DNA from: a virus
Direction: 5' to 3' (one strand)
IMG/VR virus record: IMGVR_UViG_3300025101_000190
Coordinates: 1-23,781 of that record
DNA: 23,781 nt
Shown here one piece after another: positions 11,566-20,904 of the stretch. How positions within the stretch are numbered: position 1 is the first letter of the stretch; each line of letters starts with the position of its first letter. The notes under the pieces were generated by a model. It saw nothing but the letters and a program-made list of their open reading frames with translations, was not told the DNA's origin and did not search any database. The position numbers were made by a program, and so were the translations under genes.

Positions 11566-12819
11566 TTACGAAGCTACACAGAAAGAAACAGCATGTCGTA
11601 CAGCTGTATCTACACTTTGCAATGCAACGACCCTTACGGTACCAGACTTAGAGTTGCTGAAAGGATCAACAACTATGTCTAATCCACCAAACATACCAAT
11701 AAGCAAGTCTCTCATGTTACCAAAAACATAGTTGTTTACAGTAAGCTGAGCAGATACATTAGTTCTGTACCCGTTTACTTGATCACCAACAGCTACAAAT
11801 TGTGCAGTGTTAGATGCTTTTTCAGTTGTTTTTAAAGTACCATAGTTTGTTGGGTGCATAATGTACATTAAGTCACCAACTAACGCGTTGTCAACAGCAA
11901 CTGCAGTTTCAATGCTTACAATTTCTGCAAACGTTGGAGCAGCAGCACTTGACAAAGATACTGTGTTAATTCCAGTAGTATTAGTAATACCTTTTGGATT
12001 ACCAGAACTTCCGCTACCTTCTAAAGCCGCATTATCAATAGCAATTGCCATAGAAGCTGCAAGATCATCTCTGATCAAGTTTTCAACATCTAAAGATGAT
12101 TGAGTAAGAAGTTGTCTAGTAACTTCAGTAAATGCACCTAAAGTTTTAGGAGTTAAACTAACGTTTCCGATAGTCATTTCTGATTCACCAGCGTCACCAC
12201 CTTCACTACTAATAAACGCAGCAGTACTTGCAGCAGTCTTTTTAGGGATTTTTACATCGCCTGTCAAGCCTCTGAGCATAGTAGCTGAATCCATTACAGC
12301 AGATTTATTTCTTAATACGTCAATAAAATCTCCGCCTCTGTAATCTTCTGCTATTAGATCAGAATCATCAGACGCGTTAAGATCACGTTGGTTCCAAGAT
12401 GCCATAACTTCTGGTGGAAGCATGATACCTTGTGCAGTTCTGCCGTATACTTTAGCAGCTTCTTCTGAACATTCAAATTCATATTCAGCTTCAGCTTGCG
12501 CCCTTCTGTCAGTAGGATTAGCTAAAGCGTTAATAGCTTTAACTAAAGAAAATCTACGAACATCCTTTTTAGTCATTCCAATTTCAGGAGTTTCTAAAGG
12601 TTTATTGTCTTCAATGTTTTCTAACAATATTCCTCTAAACTCATCAACTGAAACGCCATCTGAAATTGCTTTATCCGCAAGATCTCTTCTGTTATGTTTA
12701 GTAGCAAGATCTAAAATTTCTTTTGAGTTTCTTTGAAATTCTTGTCGAGCACTAACAACAGCTTCTGATCTAACTTCTTCCAAGTCAAGTTCAGGTTTTT
12801 TATCAATAACTTCTGTCAT
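11566..12819 (-). CDS. Scaffold-major capsid precursor from internal in-frame start
   Basis: The ATG at 12819 (Met434 of the fusion) begins MTEVIDKKPELDLEEVRSEA, exactly at the junction between the protease domain and the scaffold region. A ribosome site, AAGGAC, lies six bases upstream. A separate 417-residue scaffold-capsid protein is therefore likely, providing the many capsid copies needed while the full 850-residue fusion supplies a few protease copies. The logic resembles the nested lambda C/Nu3 genes, but here the nested product also includes the capsid protein. This is an inference from sequence; the ratio of products cannot be seen. Confidence 0.68.
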   Translation of the reverse strand: MTEVIDKKPELDLEEVRSEAVVSARQEFQRNSKEILDLATKHNRRDLADKAISDGVSVDEFRGILLENIEDNKPLETPEIGMTKKDVRRFSLVKAINALANPTDRRAQAEAEYEFECSEEAAKVYGRTAQGIMLPPEVMASWNQRDLNASDDSDLIAEDYRGGDFIDVLRNKSAVMDSATMLRGLTGDVKIPKKTAASTAAFISSEGGDAGESEMTIGNVSLTPKTLGAFTEVTRQLLTQSSLDVENLIRDDLAASMAIAIDNAALEGSGSSGNPKGITNTTGINTVSLSSAAAPTFAEIVSIETAVAVDNALVGDLMYIMHPTNYGTLKTTEKASNTAQFVAVGDQVNGYRTNVSAQLTVNNYVFGNMRDLLIGMFGGLDIVVDPFSNSKSGTVRVVALQSVDTAVRHAVSFCVAS

Positions 12820-14118
12820 TTTATTGTCCTTGTTAATAGGTTTATCTTTAGAACGTCCTACACCGACAGCCATTGACTGATCAGCTGGCACTGAGACAAT
12901 ACTCACTTCCATAGGACTATGTCCTACAATATATGCTGGCTTACCATTAATGTTATCAGCTGCACGTTCCATCTTGTTTACGACGTAGCCCACGCTGATA
13001 TTTTGACGAATACCATCTACTACATCTTTAAATACTTCATCAGCAAGCGCACTTCGACCAAAACGCACTATCGCAACAGCTCTATTTGTTGACTGATCAA
13101 GTTTATATTGTTCTATCACTCCAATTTGTTGCCTCATGTCGTGATCTAACAGTAAAGGAGCTCTTCCTGAAGACATGAATTCCATGTCAACATCTCCTTC
13201 TTTATGAGAAAGAATTTCCATACCAAAGTCCCTTTCTACAGGTTCTTCTGACGATACGCCTATTCTTACTCTCCTTTTTTCTTCATCTATAAATGAAGCT
13301 CGACTAAGATCAATAGTTCTATAAACGACTTCCATGTCGCCTAATCTATCTTCTTCGTCTTTATAACCTGACTCTTCTAAATCTAGATCATCAAGTTCAT
13401 TTTCTACTATACCCTCTTTTTTAGCAAAACTAACAACTACAGCGTCATCAGTTTCACTAACGTCGAGGATATGTCTATCTTGTTTATCCATAGATTTTAC
13501 CTCGTGAGTTATAGTTTCAATATTTGGATCCTGAGATCCAAAACCTCTAATTGGACTTATTTTAGTCAAAGTACTAAATTTATGTCCTACCCTTACGTCT
13601 GTTGCTTCTCCACCTCTATATAATTGTATCAGAGCAGCAGGATCTTCTGGTGTTCCTGTCAATGTTAGTTCTGATCCTGGAATATTAATTTTTCCATCTC
13701 TTTCAACTTTTATAATTTTTCCCCTAGCTCGACCGCCAGAACTTCCCCAACTTACAAAGTCTCCGACTTTTAAATCGTTAGGACCTGCTCTTAAACTTCT
13801 TTCATCTTCATTTTTCATTTGATTCACCAATTTTCTTGACCAAGAAAAACCTGCATCACCACCCCATAATGCCCATGCAATACGACCATTTGATGGATAG
13901 CCATCTTCACCAGGTTTAAAACCCTCGGCTTGTTTATTGTTTTCGTGTCTACTAAAAAAGCTAAACATTCTTTTAATAGTAGAATCCGATAAATCTTCGC
14001 CAGCTATAATTTGTCTAGCTCTAATGGCACCTACTCTAGTTCCACCTCTACCGTGTTCTTCTCTCCAATCTAAGCCCTTACGAGCTTCTTCTTTCATACC
14101 ACTATTCGGTTTCGCCAT
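11566..14118 (-). CDS. Fused prohead protease - scaffold - HK97-fold major capsid protein
   Basis: An 850-residue multidomain protein. Residues 1-100 hold a module with KPNSGMKEEARKGLDWREE, FFSRHENNKQAEGFKPGE and NGRIAWALWGGDAG. Residues 113-187 are a small barrel (VGDFVSWGSSGGRARGKI). Residues about 262-420 are an HK97-type prohead protease (S78) with the likely catalytic set His326 (LLLDHD), Ser375 (NISVGY) and Glu404 (PMEVS). Residues about 440-510 are a charged helical scaffold or delta region. Residues about 515-850 are an HK97-fold major capsid protein (AAFISSEGGDAGESEM, LEGSGSSGNPKGI). The protease would cut the scaffold off assembled capsomers. It overlaps the portal stop by 17 bases; AAGG lies upstream of the ATG. 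Protease-capsid fusions occur in other phages, but this one adds two N-terminal modules. Confidence 0.88.
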   Translation of the reverse strand: MAKPNSGMKEEARKGLDWREEHGRGGTRVGAIRARQIIAGEDLSDSTIKRMFSFFSRHENNKQAEGFKPGEDGYPSNGRIAWALWGGDAGFSWSRKLVNQMKNEDERSLRAGPNDLKVGDFVSWGSSGGRARGKIIKVERDGKINIPGSELTLTGTPEDPAALIQLYRGGEATDVRVGHKFSTLTKISPIRGFGSQDPNIETITHEVKSMDKQDRHILDVSETDDAVVVSFAKKEGIVENELDDLDLEESGYKDEEDRLGDMEVVYRTIDLSRASFIDEEKRRVRIGVSSEEPVERDFGMEILSHKEGDVDMEFMSSGRAPLLLDHDMRQQIGVIEQYKLDQSTNRAVAIVRFGRSALADEVFKDVVDGIRQNISVGYVVNKMERAADNINGKPAYIVGHSPMEVSIVSVPADQSMAVGVGRSKDKPINKDNKMTEVIDKKPELDLEEVRSEAVVSARQEFQRNSKEILDLATKHNRRDLADKAISDGVSVDEFRGILLENIEDNKPLETPEIGMTKKDVRRFSLVKAINALANPTDRRAQAEAEYEFECSEEAAKVYGRTAQGIMLPPEVMASWNQRDLNASDDSDLIAEDYRGGDFIDVLRNKSAVMDSATMLRGLTGDVKIPKKTAASTAAFISSEGGDAGESEMTIGNVSLTPKTLGAFTEVTRQLLTQSSLDVENLIRDDLAASMAIAIDNAALEGSGSSGNPKGITNTTGINTVSLSSAAAPTFAEIVSIETAVAVDNALVGDLMYIMHPTNYGTLKTTEKASNTAQFVAVGDQVNGYRTNVSAQLTVNNYVFGNMRDLLIGMFGGLDIVVDPFSNSKSGTVRVVALQSVDTAVRHAVSFCVAS
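12817..12831 (-). promoter_or_regulatory. Internal ribosome binding site of the scaffold-capsid product
   Basis: AAGGAC at 12831-12826, then six bases (AATAAA), then ATG at 12819-12817. Spacing and core are as good as those of ordinary genes in the window, and the site falls precisely at a domain boundary. Confidence 0.7.
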
Positions 14119-16254: not shown

Positions 16255-17361
16255 TTAACTATTTTTATATGATTCAATACTTAAATTATTTTGATCTAGA
16301 ATATAAGTATCTGAGGGATGTATATCTAAATCATTAAAACTACTAATAAGATCTAAGCTTAGCATTTTCTTTTGTCTTCCTTTAGGATGATCTGTAATTT
16401 TACAACTATTCCAAACTTTATCTCTATCTAAATGATCATAATCATTGCCCGGTTTAATATAATTTTCTATCCATCTTATATAATCGCACATAACATCTTC
16501 TGTATTGTAAGGAAGAGAACCAGTATCTTCGTATATTTTTTTTACAAGATCATCAATAGGTTCTTTATCGCTTATTAGTTTCGCACACTCTATTGCGTTA
16601 GAGCCATAAAAAAAATCTGATTCTGTATCTATAAGATCAGGAAACCAATCAGCAATATCTGCTAAAAAAGCAGCATATTGAAATTTGTATCTTACAAGAC
16701 CCATCTTGTTATTCCAGTCATACATAACATTTGCTAATTCTCTAAATTTTATATTTTGTTTTCTTTCTAAAGTATCTATAACAAGGTTAATTAAACTTGG
16801 AAGGTAATTAACTATAAAATAATCTCCACCTCTTTTATATTGCGTTTTTAAATAATCAGGGACTTTTGGGAATTTAGGAAACTGATAACCTACGGACGTG
16901 TAAAATGTTTTATCATAGCTTTTAACTAATTCTTTTATATCTGTTATATCACTACATTGCCATAAATCAAAAAGAATTGTATTGTGATATCCGCTTGGTT
17001 TTTTTGCGTAATTTATAGCACTTCCTGTCAGTCTATGTATCATAAAAATATAAAGCCAGGTTTTAAGATCATGTTTTGTACCTTTCCATTTTTTTATTAT
17101 TTCTCTTCGTTCATTTGTACAAAAACCCATTTGTATTTTTGTATAGTAAGGGTGTGTACTTTGATCTTGATAAAAAATATCGTTTATGATCTGACTAAAA
17201 CCAGCATACTTTCTTTCAACTACATCATAAAGTTCAACTTCTTTCATAAGATCATCTTCTATATCACAATCTTTGTGATCTAAAATTCCTAAATTACAAT
17301 GGCTTTGTTGTTTTTTTGCCATTTTGTAATATCTGATAAATTCCTCGTAATACTTATTCAT
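16255..17361 (-). CDS. Putative amino acid:DNA transferase-like base-hypermodification enzyme
   Basis: A 368-residue protein without signal or membrane segments. Conserved-looking blocks are HRLTGSAINYAKKPSGYHNT (109-128), FYTSVGYQFPKFPKV (153-167), YKRGGDYFIVNYLP (175-188), MYDWNNKMGLVRYKFQYAAF (213-232) and the acidic DIADWFPDLIDTESDFFYGS (235-254). This combination resembles, from memory, the amino acid:DNA transferase (ADDT) group associated with thymine hypermodification in phages, where an amino acid or amine is attached to an activated 5-hydroxymethyl group of the base. I cannot run a profile search. An alpha-glutamyl/putrescinyl thymine pyrophosphorylase-type helical enzyme is the main alternative. 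It overlaps the PLP gene by eight bases and is the last gene of the seven-gene modification block. Confidence 0.5.
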   Translation of the reverse strand: MNKYYEEFIRYYKMAKKQQSHCNLGILDHKDCDIEDDLMKEVELYDVVERKYAGFSQIINDIFYQDQSTHPYYTKIQMGFCTNERREIIKKWKGTKHDLKTWLYIFMIHRLTGSAINYAKKPSGYHNTILFDLWQCSDITDIKELVKSYDKTFYTSVGYQFPKFPKVPDYLKTQYKRGGDYFIVNYLPSLINLVIDTLERKQNIKFRELANVMYDWNNKMGLVRYKFQYAAFLADIADWFPDLIDTESDFFYGSNAIECAKLISDKEPIDDLVKKIYEDTGSLPYNTEDVMCDYIRWIENYIKPGNDYDHLDRDKVWNSCKITDHPKGRQKKMLSLDLISSFNDLDIHPSDTYILDQNNLSIESYKNS

Positions 17362-18205
17362 TCCAATCTCTATAACTGTTTATGTTTTTATATAAGTTTT
17401 TATTTTGCAAAACAGGTTCTGTTCCAACATTCCAAAACAAAATATCTTTATTAGTATTTTTAGGTATATATTTCCAAACCTTAGCATCATAAGAATCTAC
17501 AGATGGAAAAGGTGGCATATTATTTTTACTTTCTGATGTTTGAAAAGGCAAAGGTTCAGATATTACAGAAGATCTTCCTAACTCACCTTCCTTTAAATTT
17601 CTTGCAACTGCAACAGAAATAAATTCTGAATTAGGCCAAGCTAATTGCAAGGATCTTGATAAAACACCTGTTGATATTGCTGTATAAACAATATCAGGTT
17701 CTTTTATTTTTTTTGCTACTTTTATCATTCCACATACAACAAGTTTATGATTTAATCCTAAAGGTACAAAGTAGTGTCCATGATCCTCTGCGTATTTTTT
17801 TGCGATTCTGTTTAAATTAGGCATAGCAGCTATTCTATGAAATATAGGTTTAGCACCTCTTTCTATACAACAAGCTTGATGTTCGCTTATCTTTTTAGAA
17901 GATGGCATAAATAAAATAACGTTTTTATTGTGCCTTTTTGCAACATCAATTATAGAAACTCCAGCTAAACCAACTCTTGGTTGTACATAAACAATAGTAT
18001 CTTCTTTTACTTGACTTAATAACGCATCTGCTCCTCGACATTTTGTACCTACCAAAAGATCATCTCTTACTACTCTTACATTTTCATAAGTTTTTATCAC
18101 AGGATCTGGATAAGGATCTTCCCAACCTTTTAACAGATCAAGATATATATTTTTATATTTTTGATCTTTATTTGTGCCGTCTTGTATGTGATTATTATGA
18201 CTCAT
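17354..18205 (-). CDS. Fold-type II PLP-dependent enzyme (tryptophan synthase beta-like)
   Basis: A 283-residue soluble enzyme. VVRDDLLVGTKCRGADALLS (45-64) matches the ACC deaminase/cysteine synthase-like pattern in which the lysine of G-T-K-x-R (Lys55) binds pyridoxal phosphate. DTIVYVQPRVGLAGVSIIDV (69-88) is the following substrate-binding strand and helix. TAISTGVLSRSLQLAWPN (175-192) sits where the phosphate-binding Gly/Ser/Thr loop is found. The rest of the fold is present, though the C-terminus is shorter than in free-standing amino acid enzymes. Such enzymes act on the beta or gamma carbon of amino acids. In this cluster it could supply or process the amino acid placed on the base (inference). 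It overlaps both neighbours by 8-11 bases. Confidence 0.7.
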   Translation of the reverse strand: MSHNNHIQDGTNKDQKYKNIYLDLLKGWEDPYPDPVIKTYENVRVVRDDLLVGTKCRGADALLSQVKEDTIVYVQPRVGLAGVSIIDVAKRHNKNVILFMPSSKKISEHQACCIERGAKPIFHRIAAMPNLNRIAKKYAEDHGHYFVPLGLNHKLVVCGMIKVAKKIKEPDIVYTAISTGVLSRSLQLAWPNSEFISVAVARNLKEGELGRSSVISEPLPFQTSESKNNMPPFPSVDSYDAKVWKYIPKNTNKDILFWNVGTEPVLQNKNLYKNINSYRDWNE

Positions 18206-19181
18206 CGTCTAAAAACCTACCCCAATCTTTTCTTCTATAATGTGTCGGAGCTATATGAACACTTGAGCTCAACTCCATTATTTCTTTTGCATATGATTCA
18301 GGATCCATTGTGTACCAATGAGGTGGAGGAGACACAACATGTCTATAATTTTGAAACAAATATCTTTTCCATTCATTTGTAAGATCTCTTCTTTCTGTTT
18401 CTGATCCAAAAAACGGTGTTCCTTGATAAAAACCTGTTTTTGGTATTCTTCTAAATTGGTATTCTACGGGAACAGGACAAGCTAATTCTACTCTTATGTC
18501 ATGTCTTTTTTGTAATTCATAACTTCCTTTGATCAAAGAATTAAGCATTTCTTTCCAATCAGTATTATTTCTAATTATATGGTGCCTTATATCTATTGAT
18601 CCAAAACACAAAGTCATTCTCACTATATTCTTAGGTACTTTAATGTAGTCAAACCAGTGTTTCCTTTTTAGTAATCCATACAAAGTTGATCCATCTTTTC
18701 TAAGTATAGAATCGTATCGTTTAGAAAAAGCTATAGAATGTGAATCTCCATAAGTAAGACCGTTAAAGTCTAATAAATTATAATCGCTATATTTTATAGA
18801 ATCTACATTTTTACAAAACTCAGTAACTTGATTGCACCAGTTTTCGGTTATTTTCTCGTATGTACTTTTTGCATTTAAACGTTGTTTAAAAAGTAATCCA
18901 TAATCTGGCATATCATGATCTAAAGAAACAACATTTTTATGTTCCATAACTGTGTTAAATTTTTCATATATATCCTTGTTAAGACCGCCAAAAAGATTTA
19001 AGGATCCTTTAAAATTAACTCCATGATCTATATATACGGTTTCATTTTTTAATATGCTTTTTGTACATTTATGGTTTATTTCTGCTTCTAACATTTCTGA
19101 CCAGCAAAAACTCCACCCGTACGTATGAGATTTAGAATTAACTGGTATATTTGCTAAGGGATTCGTAATCGCATTTTTCAT
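18195..19181 (-). CDS. SGNH/GDSL-like protein with GDSH and DIRHH motifs
   Basis: A 328-residue protein. The N-terminal 140 residues (GWSFCWSEMLEAEI, VYIDHGVNFKGSLNLFGGLN, SLDHDMPDYGLLFKQR) form a distinct domain. From 142 it reads LTYGDSHSIAFSKR, with block I Ser147. LCFGSIDIRHHIIR (191-204) takes the place of the G-x-N-D block, with Ile where Asn is usual. SSSVHIAPTHYRR (305-317) resembles the C-terminal His block. The central RIPKTGFYQGTPFFGS (245-260) is very conserved-looking. SGNH enzymes are esterases or acyl transferases. The substrate here is unknown; a step in building or trimming the base adduct is one possibility. AGGAGA eight bases before the ATG supports this start, despite a 44-base overlap with the deaminase gene. 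Confidence 0.55.
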   Translation of the reverse strand: MKNAITNPLANIPVNSKSHTYGWSFCWSEMLEAEINHKCTKSILKNETVYIDHGVNFKGSLNLFGGLNKDIYEKFNTVMEHKNVVSLDHDMPDYGLLFKQRLNAKSTYEKITENWCNQVTEFCKNVDSIKYSDYNLLDFNGLTYGDSHSIAFSKRYDSILRKDGSTLYGLLKRKHWFDYIKVPKNIVRMTLCFGSIDIRHHIIRNNTDWKEMLNSLIKGSYELQKRHDIRVELACPVPVEYQFRRIPKTGFYQGTPFFGSETERRDLTNEWKRYLFQNYRHVVSPPPHWYTMDPESYAKEIMELSSSVHIAPTHYRRKDWGRFLDDES

Positions 19182-19617
19182 AATGTATATCTCCTAATTT
19201 AAAAATATTTTCCGTAATAACAAACGACTCTCTCCAATAATCACTGACTATTGGTTTTGAGCATGTAAAAACTTGTTTAATTCCAACTTGTACAATTGCT
19301 TTTGCACATTCGCTACAAACATCTAAACCATATACAAATAAAGAAGAATTTTCTAAACTAACACCGTTTAAAGTTGCGTGATATATACAATTCATTTCAG
19401 CGTGTACTATATATTTATATTTAACTTGTCTATTTTCGTATAAATTTTTATCATCATGAAAGGATCTTGGAAAGCCATTATATCCTTGTGATAGCACTTG
19501 ACCTTTGTCGCCTATACAAATAGCACCTACTTTTGTAGATGGATCTTTGCTCCAAGTAGAGATTTCTTTAGCTAATCTAAAGTATCTATACTTCCAAATA
19601 TTCGAAATGTCTCTCAT
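19138..19617 (-). CDS. Deoxycytidylate (dCMP) deaminase
   Basis: A 159-residue zinc-dependent deaminase converting dCMP to dUMP. Zinc and catalytic motifs are HAEMN (His72, Glu74) and CSECA (Cys101, Cys104). WSKDPSTKVGAICIGDKGQV (22-41) and SQGYNGFPRS (43-52) are the nucleotide-binding landmarks of dCMP deaminases. Length is normal for the ComEB/T4 cd family. Product dUMP is the substrate for the thymidylate-synthase-family enzyme encoded immediately upstream, with which it overlaps by 32 bases. The family is often feedback-regulated by dCTP and dTTP; whether that holds here cannot be seen. Confidence 0.92.
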   Translation of the reverse strand: MRDISNIWKYRYFRLAKEISTWSKDPSTKVGAICIGDKGQVLSQGYNGFPRSFHDDKNLYENRQVKYKYIVHAEMNCIYHATLNGVSLENSSLFVYGLDVCSECAKAIVQVGIKQVFTCSKPIVSDYWRESFVITENIFKLGDIHYEKCDYESLSKYTS

Positions 19618-20239
19618 AAATATGTAAGTTTTGTACTTGCCAAAATATATTACCTACTTCTATACATACTAAATCACTGATCATAGTAAGTAAGTATTCT
19701 TGCCAAGCATAATCGTTTTTATAACCGTATACTACATCGTTACTTCTCATTTGCACGACGCAATGTAATTTATTATTTCTAATATAGTAAGTAACAGCGT
19801 TAGTACAAATAAAATCATTTTTGCCGTTACTTTTAAATTCTTCCCAAATAGATGGTCTTGTATAAACTAAACAAGCTCTTCTCGTGTCTTTGTTTTCAAG
19901 TAATTCATCTACAACTTTACTAAATTGATTGTAATACTGATCAGAAAAAACAAGGCGTCCATAATTACTATTTACTTCTCCGTGAGAGTTAGCTGTATAT
20001 TTCCATGCTGCGGGTATAATTTTATAAGGCAAGTCTTTTATATTTGTACTTTGACTTTTATACCATTCTAGTTCTGCGTTAATATATTCTTTATTAACAT
20101 TTCCAAATATAGTATTTTGATCACAAACAAAACTAGCCGGGATCATTTCTATAGTTTTTGATCCTGTCTTATCTATAGTAAATTCTTTATTCTTGTATGC
20201 GTTAATGAAATAATCTTTTATATTACTTGTCTTGTCCAT
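19586..20239 (-). CDS. Thymidylate synthase-family nucleotide (hydroxy)methylase
   Basis: A 217-residue enzyme, shorter than bacterial ThyA (264). Cys145 in DFICTNAVTYYIRNNKLHC is the likely nucleophile, QMRSNDVVYGYKNDYAWQEY (163-182) is the substrate loop, and NLHIYERH (204-211) is the family's H-x-Y motif. It could make dTMP, or 5-hydroxymethyl-dUMP or -dCMP, from methylene-tetrahydrofolate. The residue that reads the pyrimidine (Asn177 in E. coli ThyA) aligns without gaps to Asp176, with Asn175 adjacent, so specificity is ambiguous. The adjacent dCMP deaminase favours a dUMP substrate, and the surrounding genes favour hydroxymethylation. A purine-rich AGGGGGAAAA precedes the ATG. It overlaps the upstream gene by 17 bases. 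Confidence 0.82.
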   Translation of the reverse strand: MDKTSNIKDYFINAYKNKEFTIDKTGSKTIEMIPASFVCDQNTIFGNVNKEYINAELEWYKSQSTNIKDLPYKIIPAAWKYTANSHGEVNSNYGRLVFSDQYYNQFSKVVDELLENKDTRRACLVYTRPSIWEEFKSNGKNDFICTNAVTYYIRNNKLHCVVQMRSNDVVYGYKNDYAWQEYLLTMISDLVCIEVGNIFWQVQNLHIYERHFEYLEV

Positions 20240-20510
20240 CTATTTTCCCCCTGTGAAATAAAATTAAAAATGTCGCATAGTTAATAAGATCTTTTGCATT
20301 GTCTTCTATACCTTCAAAGTTTGGCTCACCATCTGCTTCTATTAATGACCATAGTCTAGTTGTTTTTGTATGTATCATTTCCATAATAGATAATGCACCG
20401 CGTGGATAATAATCAACTTGTTTGATTCTAGATTCTTTATTTTGATAGTCTTCTGATTTCTTTTTTAGTATCTCTAAACATTCAACTAATACTTTTTCTG
20501 CTTCAATCAT
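20223..20510 (-). CDS. DUF1599 / nucleotide modification-associated domain 1-like protein
   Basis: A 95-residue all-helical protein. Its pattern, KKKSEDYQNKE near residue 17, then MEMIHTKTTRLWSLIEADGE (43-62) and DNAKDLINYATFLILF (70-85), follows the DUF1599/Nmad1 family: K-x-x-D-Y near the start, K-x-x-R-x-x-x-L in the middle and D/E-x-x-D-L-I-N-Y-A at the end. The family is related to MazG-type pyrophosphohydrolases and occurs beside genes for modified nucleotides. It may hydrolyse an unmodified or modified dNTP. The gene overlaps its neighbours by 8 and 17 bases, so it is part of the same operon. Confidence 0.65.
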   Translation of the reverse strand: MIEAEKVLVECLEILKKKSEDYQNKESRIKQVDYYPRGALSIMEMIHTKTTRLWSLIEADGEPNFEGIEDNAKDLINYATFLILFHRGKIDGQDK

Positions 20511-20904
20511 TTTTGATCTCCTTTAATGTTCCTACGTTGTCTTGATGATAAGGTGCTTTCCATAATTCTGGTTTTATAAGATCAGGTAAATTATGCTTGT
20601 TTTCTCTTTTATCATTAATATCTTTTTCTTTTATCATATTTGCAAAATGTACTCTTGCCCAAGCTTTCTCAATATCTACATCAAAACTATCTAAAGTACC
20701 TAGTGCTACAACTACTAAATCTATAAAAGCATCAACGATATCGTCTGCGTTGTTTAGATGTCTTGCATCTTGAAGTTCTGTTAGTTCTTCTTTTATGAAA
20801 TTGATTCTAAAATCTAAATATTCTTTTTTTAGATTAGGTTCCATATTTCTAACGGTGTTAGTAATATCAAACCTCTTATTAAGGTCTTTTATATCTTTGA
20901 TCAT
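20503..20904 (-). CDS. All-alpha NTP pyrophosphohydrolase (MazG/PRA-PH-like)
   Basis: A 133-residue helical protein. FIKEELTELQDARHLNNADD (36-55) followed by IVDAFIDLVVVALGTLDSFD (56-75) gives the E-E-x-x-E and D-x-x-x-D metal-binding pattern (Glu39/40/43, Asp58/62) of the phosphoribosyl-ATP pyrophosphohydrolase/MazG superfamily. The end, DLIKPELWKAPYHQD, is similar to phage members of that family. It would cleave a nucleoside triphosphate to monophosphate and pyrophosphate, perhaps removing a competing dNTP such as dCTP, dTTP or dUTP from the pool (inference). It is the first gene of the seven-gene block. AGGAGT six bases before its ATG is a strong ribosome site. Confidence 0.8.
   Translation of the reverse strand: MIKDIKDLNKRFDITNTVRNMEPNLKKEYLDFRINFIKEELTELQDARHLNNADDIVDAFIDLVVVALGTLDSFDVDIEKAWARVHFANMIKEKDINDKRENKHNLPDLIKPELWKAPYHQDNVGTLKEIKND

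Follow-up and report, generated by a model that had tools for sequence, protein, structure and literature searches.

An SGNH-fold protein as the predicted core of a probable phage cassette for 5hmC hypermodification

The best overall explanation of the locus described here, to which we assign a probability of roughly 60%, is that it is a cassette making hypermodified 5-hydroxymethylcytosine (5hmC), in which an SGNH-fold protein of 328 amino acids and a helical partner form the core and a PLP enzyme is an exchangeable tailoring component. The locus was found in a 23.8-kb phage fragment from IMG/VR, the whole of which is called the window below. That the cassette serves 5hmC hypermodification is, given its gene content, highly probable; the particular roles that we propose for the SGNH-fold protein and the PLP enzyme are doubtful. 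A wider reading is tentative, and we give it somewhat less than even odds: 5hmC hypermodification would include a large undescribed class centered on an SGNH-fold enzyme whose DNA-binding domain is glucosyltransferase-like. Exchangeable partners would add either a group derived from an amino acid (PLP type) or inositol (synthase type), and the same enzyme would account for the cytosine modification that is missing in Aeromonas T4-like phages.

Gene content and the predicted modified base

The cassette interrupts a lambda-type packaging and head module, with the terminase gene on one side and the gpW-like and portal genes on the other, and the same gene order is kept in a 90% relative. All cassette features given here are on the minus strand. 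It includes the two open reading frames, overlapping by 11 bases, that a preliminary description had reported, and both are present: the gene for the 328-aa protein (18195-19181; phrog_13881 family), assigned as the cassette core from its homologues, linkage, model and fold matches, and the gene for a 283-aa fold-type II PLP enzyme (17354-18205; phrog_7093). On their 5' side, on the same strand and overlapping, are genes for a MazG/PRA-PH-like pyrophosphohydrolase with a probable dCTPase role (20503-20904; PF01503, 2e-10), an NMAD1-like protein (DUF1599, nucleotide modification associated domain 1; 20223-20510; PF07659, E 2e-4, just under the cut-off), a thymidylate-synthase-family protein (19586-20239) and a dCMP deaminase with HAE...CSEC zinc motifs (19138-19617; PF00383, 8e-17). 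The gene on the 3' side of the PLP gene encodes a 368-aa protein of an undescribed family (16255-17361). Elsewhere in the window, positions 11566-14118 encode an 850-aa protein in which a head maturation protease region is apparently joined to the major head protein.

Judged by sequence similarity, the thymidylate-synthase-family protein is a dCMP hydroxymethylase of the T4 gp42 type, the predicted source of hydroxymethyl-dCMP, and no thymidylate synthase. It matched T4 dCMP hydroxymethylase (PDB 1b49) with 221 bits, compared to 51 bits for the best thymidylate synthase. The catalytic Cys is kept (DFICTN), and the GYKND motif has Asp at the position that decides between C and U (177/179). Nearly every cassette has a GYKND-type Asp motif, and 109 of 110 have the catalytic Cys motif. 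A metagenome association study found this Asp to distinguish phage contigs with modified C from those without, and there a 5hmC carbamoyltransferase usually has PRA-PH and dCMP deaminase domains as its neighbors (PMC8670742). In addition, several related contigs encode ThyX, so dTMP has another source and does not depend on the hydroxymethylase. Together, the dCMP hydroxymethylase, its Asp motif, the neighbors described in that study and the presence of ThyX indicate that the cassette very probably works on 5hmC.

Fold and active site of the 328-aa protein

The preliminary description had proposed an SGNH fold with an altered active site for the 328-aa protein, and both parts of this proposal are supported by structure prediction and by conservation. 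A model built from 82 diverse homologues reached a pLDDT of 93.8 and a pTM of 0.90; a first model, built from 6 sequences, was discarded at pLDDT 48. The C-terminal domain of the model (residues ~130-322; 18216-18794) aligned structurally with 2hsj_D over 166 residues lying within residues 133-322 (VIA-align Z 12.3, 3.1 A), and Foldseek matched the model to SGNH enzymes with an E value of 9e-5 and a probability of 1.00. Its best structural matches in the PDB were nearly all SGNH/GDSL enzymes (hydrolases and acetyltransferases), mostly esterases or acylhydrolases. A sequence search with the family against the PDB gave nothing credible. The GDSH motif had also been considered as a GT-B donor loop, an assignment dropped once the model gave the C-terminal domain an SGNH fold.

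The block I motif, the C-terminal His and the replacement of the block III Asn by Ile, all named in that description, each hold in 82 of 82 homologues. Block I consists of Gly145, Asp146, Ser147 and His148 (18738-18749), with Ser147 as the candidate nucleophile, and His309 of block V (18255-18257) is the candidate catalytic His. The altered block III reads GSIDIRHH (residues 194-201; 18579-18602), in which residue 196, at the usual Asn position, is Ile in every homologue and Asn in none, so that GxND is not formed. Similarly, residue 306, three before the His and usually Asp, varies among S, K, Q, G and R, so that DxxH is not formed. Glu303 is the nearest invariant acid to His309, and it belongs to a further set of invariant residues with Asp197, Arg199, His200, His201, Arg204, Glu240, Arg244 and Arg264. 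According to the model and the alignment, the 328-aa protein has an SGNH fold lacking the standard active site and is no canonical SGNH hydrolase. A literature search, with incomplete coverage of subscription journals, yielded no account of an SGNH protein taking part in DNA modification.

The N-terminal domain (residues 1-129; 18795-19181), Rossmann-like by the secondary structure of the model, had been reported as an unrecognised domain of 140 residues. It is a real and well-modelled domain of about 130 residues, although it is not wholly unrecognisable: only one weak Pfam match recurs in the family, that to PF09198, the N-terminal domain of T4 beta-glucosyltransferase (BGT; matched by 17 of 82 members, best E 0.003), and a profile comparison of the two N-terminal domains with hhalign gave a probability of 24-41%. 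Asp90, which the profile alignment places at the BGT catalytic base, is present in 64 of the 82 homologues; Asp88, an earlier choice for this counterpart, was given up in favor of Asp90, and neither residue is invariant. A search of T4 with the A10 profile gave no match, and T4 BGT was absent among the structural matches listed, a list filled by matches to the C-terminal domain. The listed matches of the C-terminal domain, which would correspond in position to the GT-B donor-binding domain, are nearly all to SGNH folds. On these profile comparisons, the likeness of the N-terminal domain to T4 BGT is suggestive only.

Constant and exchangeable partners

Relatives of the SGNH-fold protein occur in at least 590 viral stretches, two pattern scans having returned at least 590 and at least 592 true relatives. 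The closest 80 loci per scan were kept, and the counts given here therefore describe the neighborhood of the queries rather than the whole family. All 85 pairs of SGNH and PLP genes are on one strand and 77 of them overlap or are at most 20 nt apart. Given this conserved strand and spacing and the number of relatives, the pairing is not due to chance, and the tight pairing noted in the preliminary description stands.

The PLP enzyme is nevertheless not the constant partner. Partners were counted per locus, without dereplication, in 81 loci flanked on each side by at least 2.5 kb; the viral contigs are fragments. The 368-aa family was present in 51 of these loci, 41 times with the PLP enzyme and 10 times without it, and an HMUDK_hel-like protein together with myo-inositol-phosphate synthase was present in 30. 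Every locus had either the 368-aa family or the HMUDK_hel-like protein and none had both; likewise, the PLP enzyme (41 loci) and inositol-phosphate synthase (30 loci) shared no locus. On a quick tree of SGNH sequences dereplicated at 85% identity, there were at least three switches between the two types and at least five gains or losses of the PLP enzyme. These counts and the tree identify the SGNH-fold protein as the constant part and the PLP enzyme as an exchangeable one. The earlier emphasis on the SGNH-PLP pair is thus reversed, the constant partner being the 368-aa family or the HMUDK_hel-like protein, and the pair is not linked in all homologues, PLP being absent from the Aeromonas and inositol-type lineages; the preliminary description had named unlinked homologues as a refutation, and this applies in part. 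The suggestion of consecutive steps holds to the extent that the two proteins appear to act in one pathway, which is very probably 5hmC hypermodification. Movement of an acyl or amino-acid group by the pair, as suggested there, is still a hypothesis.

The two constant partners differ in what they resemble. In hhalign comparisons, the inositol-type partner matched the C-terminal domain of a fusion protein of Aeromonas phage 44RR (99.8%, E 2.5e-29) and HMUDK_hel (78%). The 368-aa family gave nothing significant against ADDT or HMUDK_hel (4.8% and 5.7%), with three short motifs lining up; the name 'AADT' that we had considered for it found no support in Pfam or in profile comparison and was withdrawn. 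Its profile had no match in the PDB, and a tblastn search found the 368-aa protein in no named phage.

In the sister cassettes (for example L124:1593-5361 and L126:3061-7104, and about 54 other loci), myo-inositol-1-phosphate synthase (PF01658), a HAD-like protein and the HMUDK_hel-like protein replace the PLP enzyme, and a C5-cytosine DNA methylase is often next after these genes. This gene content suggests that inositol may be placed on phage DNA. By eye, the flanks of another cassette (L003:3702-14350) contain genes for a HAD phosphatase, a cytidylyltransferase, UDP-glucose dehydrogenase, an NAD epimerase, KdsA and KdsB, apparently a phage KDO/sugar pathway. Given the sugar pathways near some cassettes, other donors are also conceivable.

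Homology to gp052 of Pseudomonas phage M6 extends over the length of the PLP enzyme (BLASTP 8e-8; hhalign 96.9%, E 1.4e-10), whose catalytic Lys, Lys55, is invariant in 27 homologues. Erythrobacter phage R6L has a fusion of an M6-like PLP domain with a DNA methylase (L009:1-2423), and in Microcystis phage Mae-JY30 an M6-like PLP enzyme adjoins ParB and methylase genes (L008:8384-10702). These two phages appear to present another DNA-modification context for the M6-like PLP family.

Direct homologues of the 328-aa protein are found in Aeromonas phages 44RR and 31 (795 aa) and 25 (348 aa); they belong to phrog_17781 and phrog_13881 and all are uncharacterized. The 795-aa protein of 44RR is a fusion of an SGNH-type domain with an HMUDK_hel-like domain (L005:4408-8388), and its gene directly adjoins a sodium:solute symporter gene. 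The gp42 proteins of 44RR and 25 are 48% identical to the dCMP hydroxymethylase of the window, and inositol-phosphate synthase is absent from both phages. In phage 25 (L006:3776-7047), the SGNH homologue is adjoined by genes for UDP-galactopyranose mutase and for a glycosyltransferase-like protein of 358 aa without a Pfam match. Phages 44RR, 31 and 25 have homologues of gp42 and gp56 and no glucosyltransferase, and whether their hmC carries another modification was described as an open question in 2010 (PMC2993671). Based on homology, the SGNH relatives in these phages are candidates for whatever, if anything, replaces glucosylation.

Proposed pathway, alternatives and known systems

In the pathway that we propose, dCTP would be converted to dCMP and then to hydroxymethyl-dCMP, which would be built into DNA as 5hmC. 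The 328-aa protein would recognise 5hmC, perhaps via its glucosyltransferase-like N-terminal domain, and its SGNH domain (Ser147, His309) would act on the hydroxymethyl group, most likely by acylation or another activation, where M6 uses a kinase. This acylation or activation is the weakest link of the mechanism. Transfer of a small molecule, which would be an amino acid in the PLP type and inositol in the synthase type, would be completed by the 368-aa protein or, in the sister type, by the HMUDK_hel-like protein. The PLP enzyme would then trim or rearrange the amino acid, with decarboxylation as one example, and the resulting base would protect phage DNA against nucleases. The published 5hmC decorations that we met in this work are sugars and carbamoyl. 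If our interpretation is true, the range of DNA chemistry would be extended by a class with members in at least 590 viral stretches, which would offer new enzymes for 5hmC tagging, as well as a named, testable gene for the question of what, if anything, substitutes for glucosylation in the Aeromonas phages.

Alternatively, the same enzymes could act on hydroxymethyl-dCMP or -dCTP in the nucleotide pool, before polymerization, and not on DNA. Such a role would suit a cassette rich in nucleotide-level enzymes (the MazG-like protein, deaminase and hydroxymethylase) and has a parallel in the 5hmC carbamoyltransferase, which also acts on 5hmdCTP (PMC8670742). However, the HMUDK_hel-like partner and the M6-type PLP enzyme belong to post-replicative pathways, and the N-terminal domain has some resemblance to that of a DNA glucosyltransferase; we consider modification of the pool unlikely. 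A more conservative view of the SGNH domain is that it is a plain hydrolase within the same pathway, for example one that removes an ester from a decorated 5hmC intermediate or clears by-products. Its nearest folds are mostly esterases and acylhydrolases and it keeps Ser147 and His309, yet the oxyanion Asn and triad Asp are absent in 82 of 82 homologues, and new invariant Arg, His and Glu residues are present. The occurrence of the SGNH protein with every partner set, and its fusion to an HMUDK_hel-like domain in 44RR, suit core transfer better than hydrolysis, and we judge the hydrolase role quite improbable.

It is also conceivable that the SGNH-PLP pair stands beside nucleotide genes by chance and forms an unrelated module, serving metabolism or surface polysaccharides, as phage SGNH domains are common in tail fibers and some cassettes are near sugar-pathway genes. 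We regard this as very improbable: linkage to dCMP hydroxymethylase and deaminase genes recurs across divergent SGNH sequences and distinct phage types, the PLP enzyme is of the type found in M6 hypermodification, and the 328-aa protein is without tail-fiber architecture. Hypermodification of 5hmC with the SGNH-fold protein at its core remains our preferred interpretation.

The cassette resembles several known systems in part. The thymidine hypermodification cassette of M6 shares with the window a homologous PLP enzyme and a thymidylate-synthase-family hydroxymethylase as its entry point, M6 has a dCMP deaminase gene as does the window, and its HMUDK_hel is likened to the protein of the inositol cassette type. 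M6 gp051, gp054 and gp055 are ADDT, HMUDK and HMUDK_hel, its cassette also contains a radical SAM protein, and the same gene set is listed as the thymidine modification cassette of the M6-like phage SN1 (PMC9476957). M6 modifies U/T, whereas the cassette of the window would modify C, its hydroxymethylase being of the dCMP and not the dUMP type. The hmdU DNA kinase (PF18748) and ADDT (PF18724) were both found in M6; searches of the window and of eight large cassette contigs, which may be incomplete, gave neither, so the M6 route would not simply carry over to these nine contigs. No radical SAM protein is among the genes annotated in the window; the SGNH-fold protein and the 368-aa family are present instead.

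SGNH/GDSL hydrolases and acetyltransferases such as PAF-AH, PatB and sialate O-acetylesterase share the fold, the GDS of block I and the C-terminal His with the 328-aa protein, which differs from them in its block III Ile, in lacking the Asp three before the His, in its extra N-terminal domain and in its linkage to DNA-modification genes. Glucosylation of 5hmC in T4, by gp42 and BGT, uses the same dCMP hydroxymethylase family, and its glucosyltransferase is the enzyme to which the N-terminal domain shows a weak likeness; it has no counterpart of the PLP enzyme or helical partners, and the C-terminal domain of the window protein is an SGNH fold. Finally, the 5hmC carbamoyltransferase cassettes combine a thymidylate-synthase-family protein that has Asp at 177 with PRA-PH and dCMP deaminase, as in the window (PMC8670742), but decorate the base by a TobZ-like carbamoyltransferase, a step for which the window would use an SGNH-fold protein with its partners.
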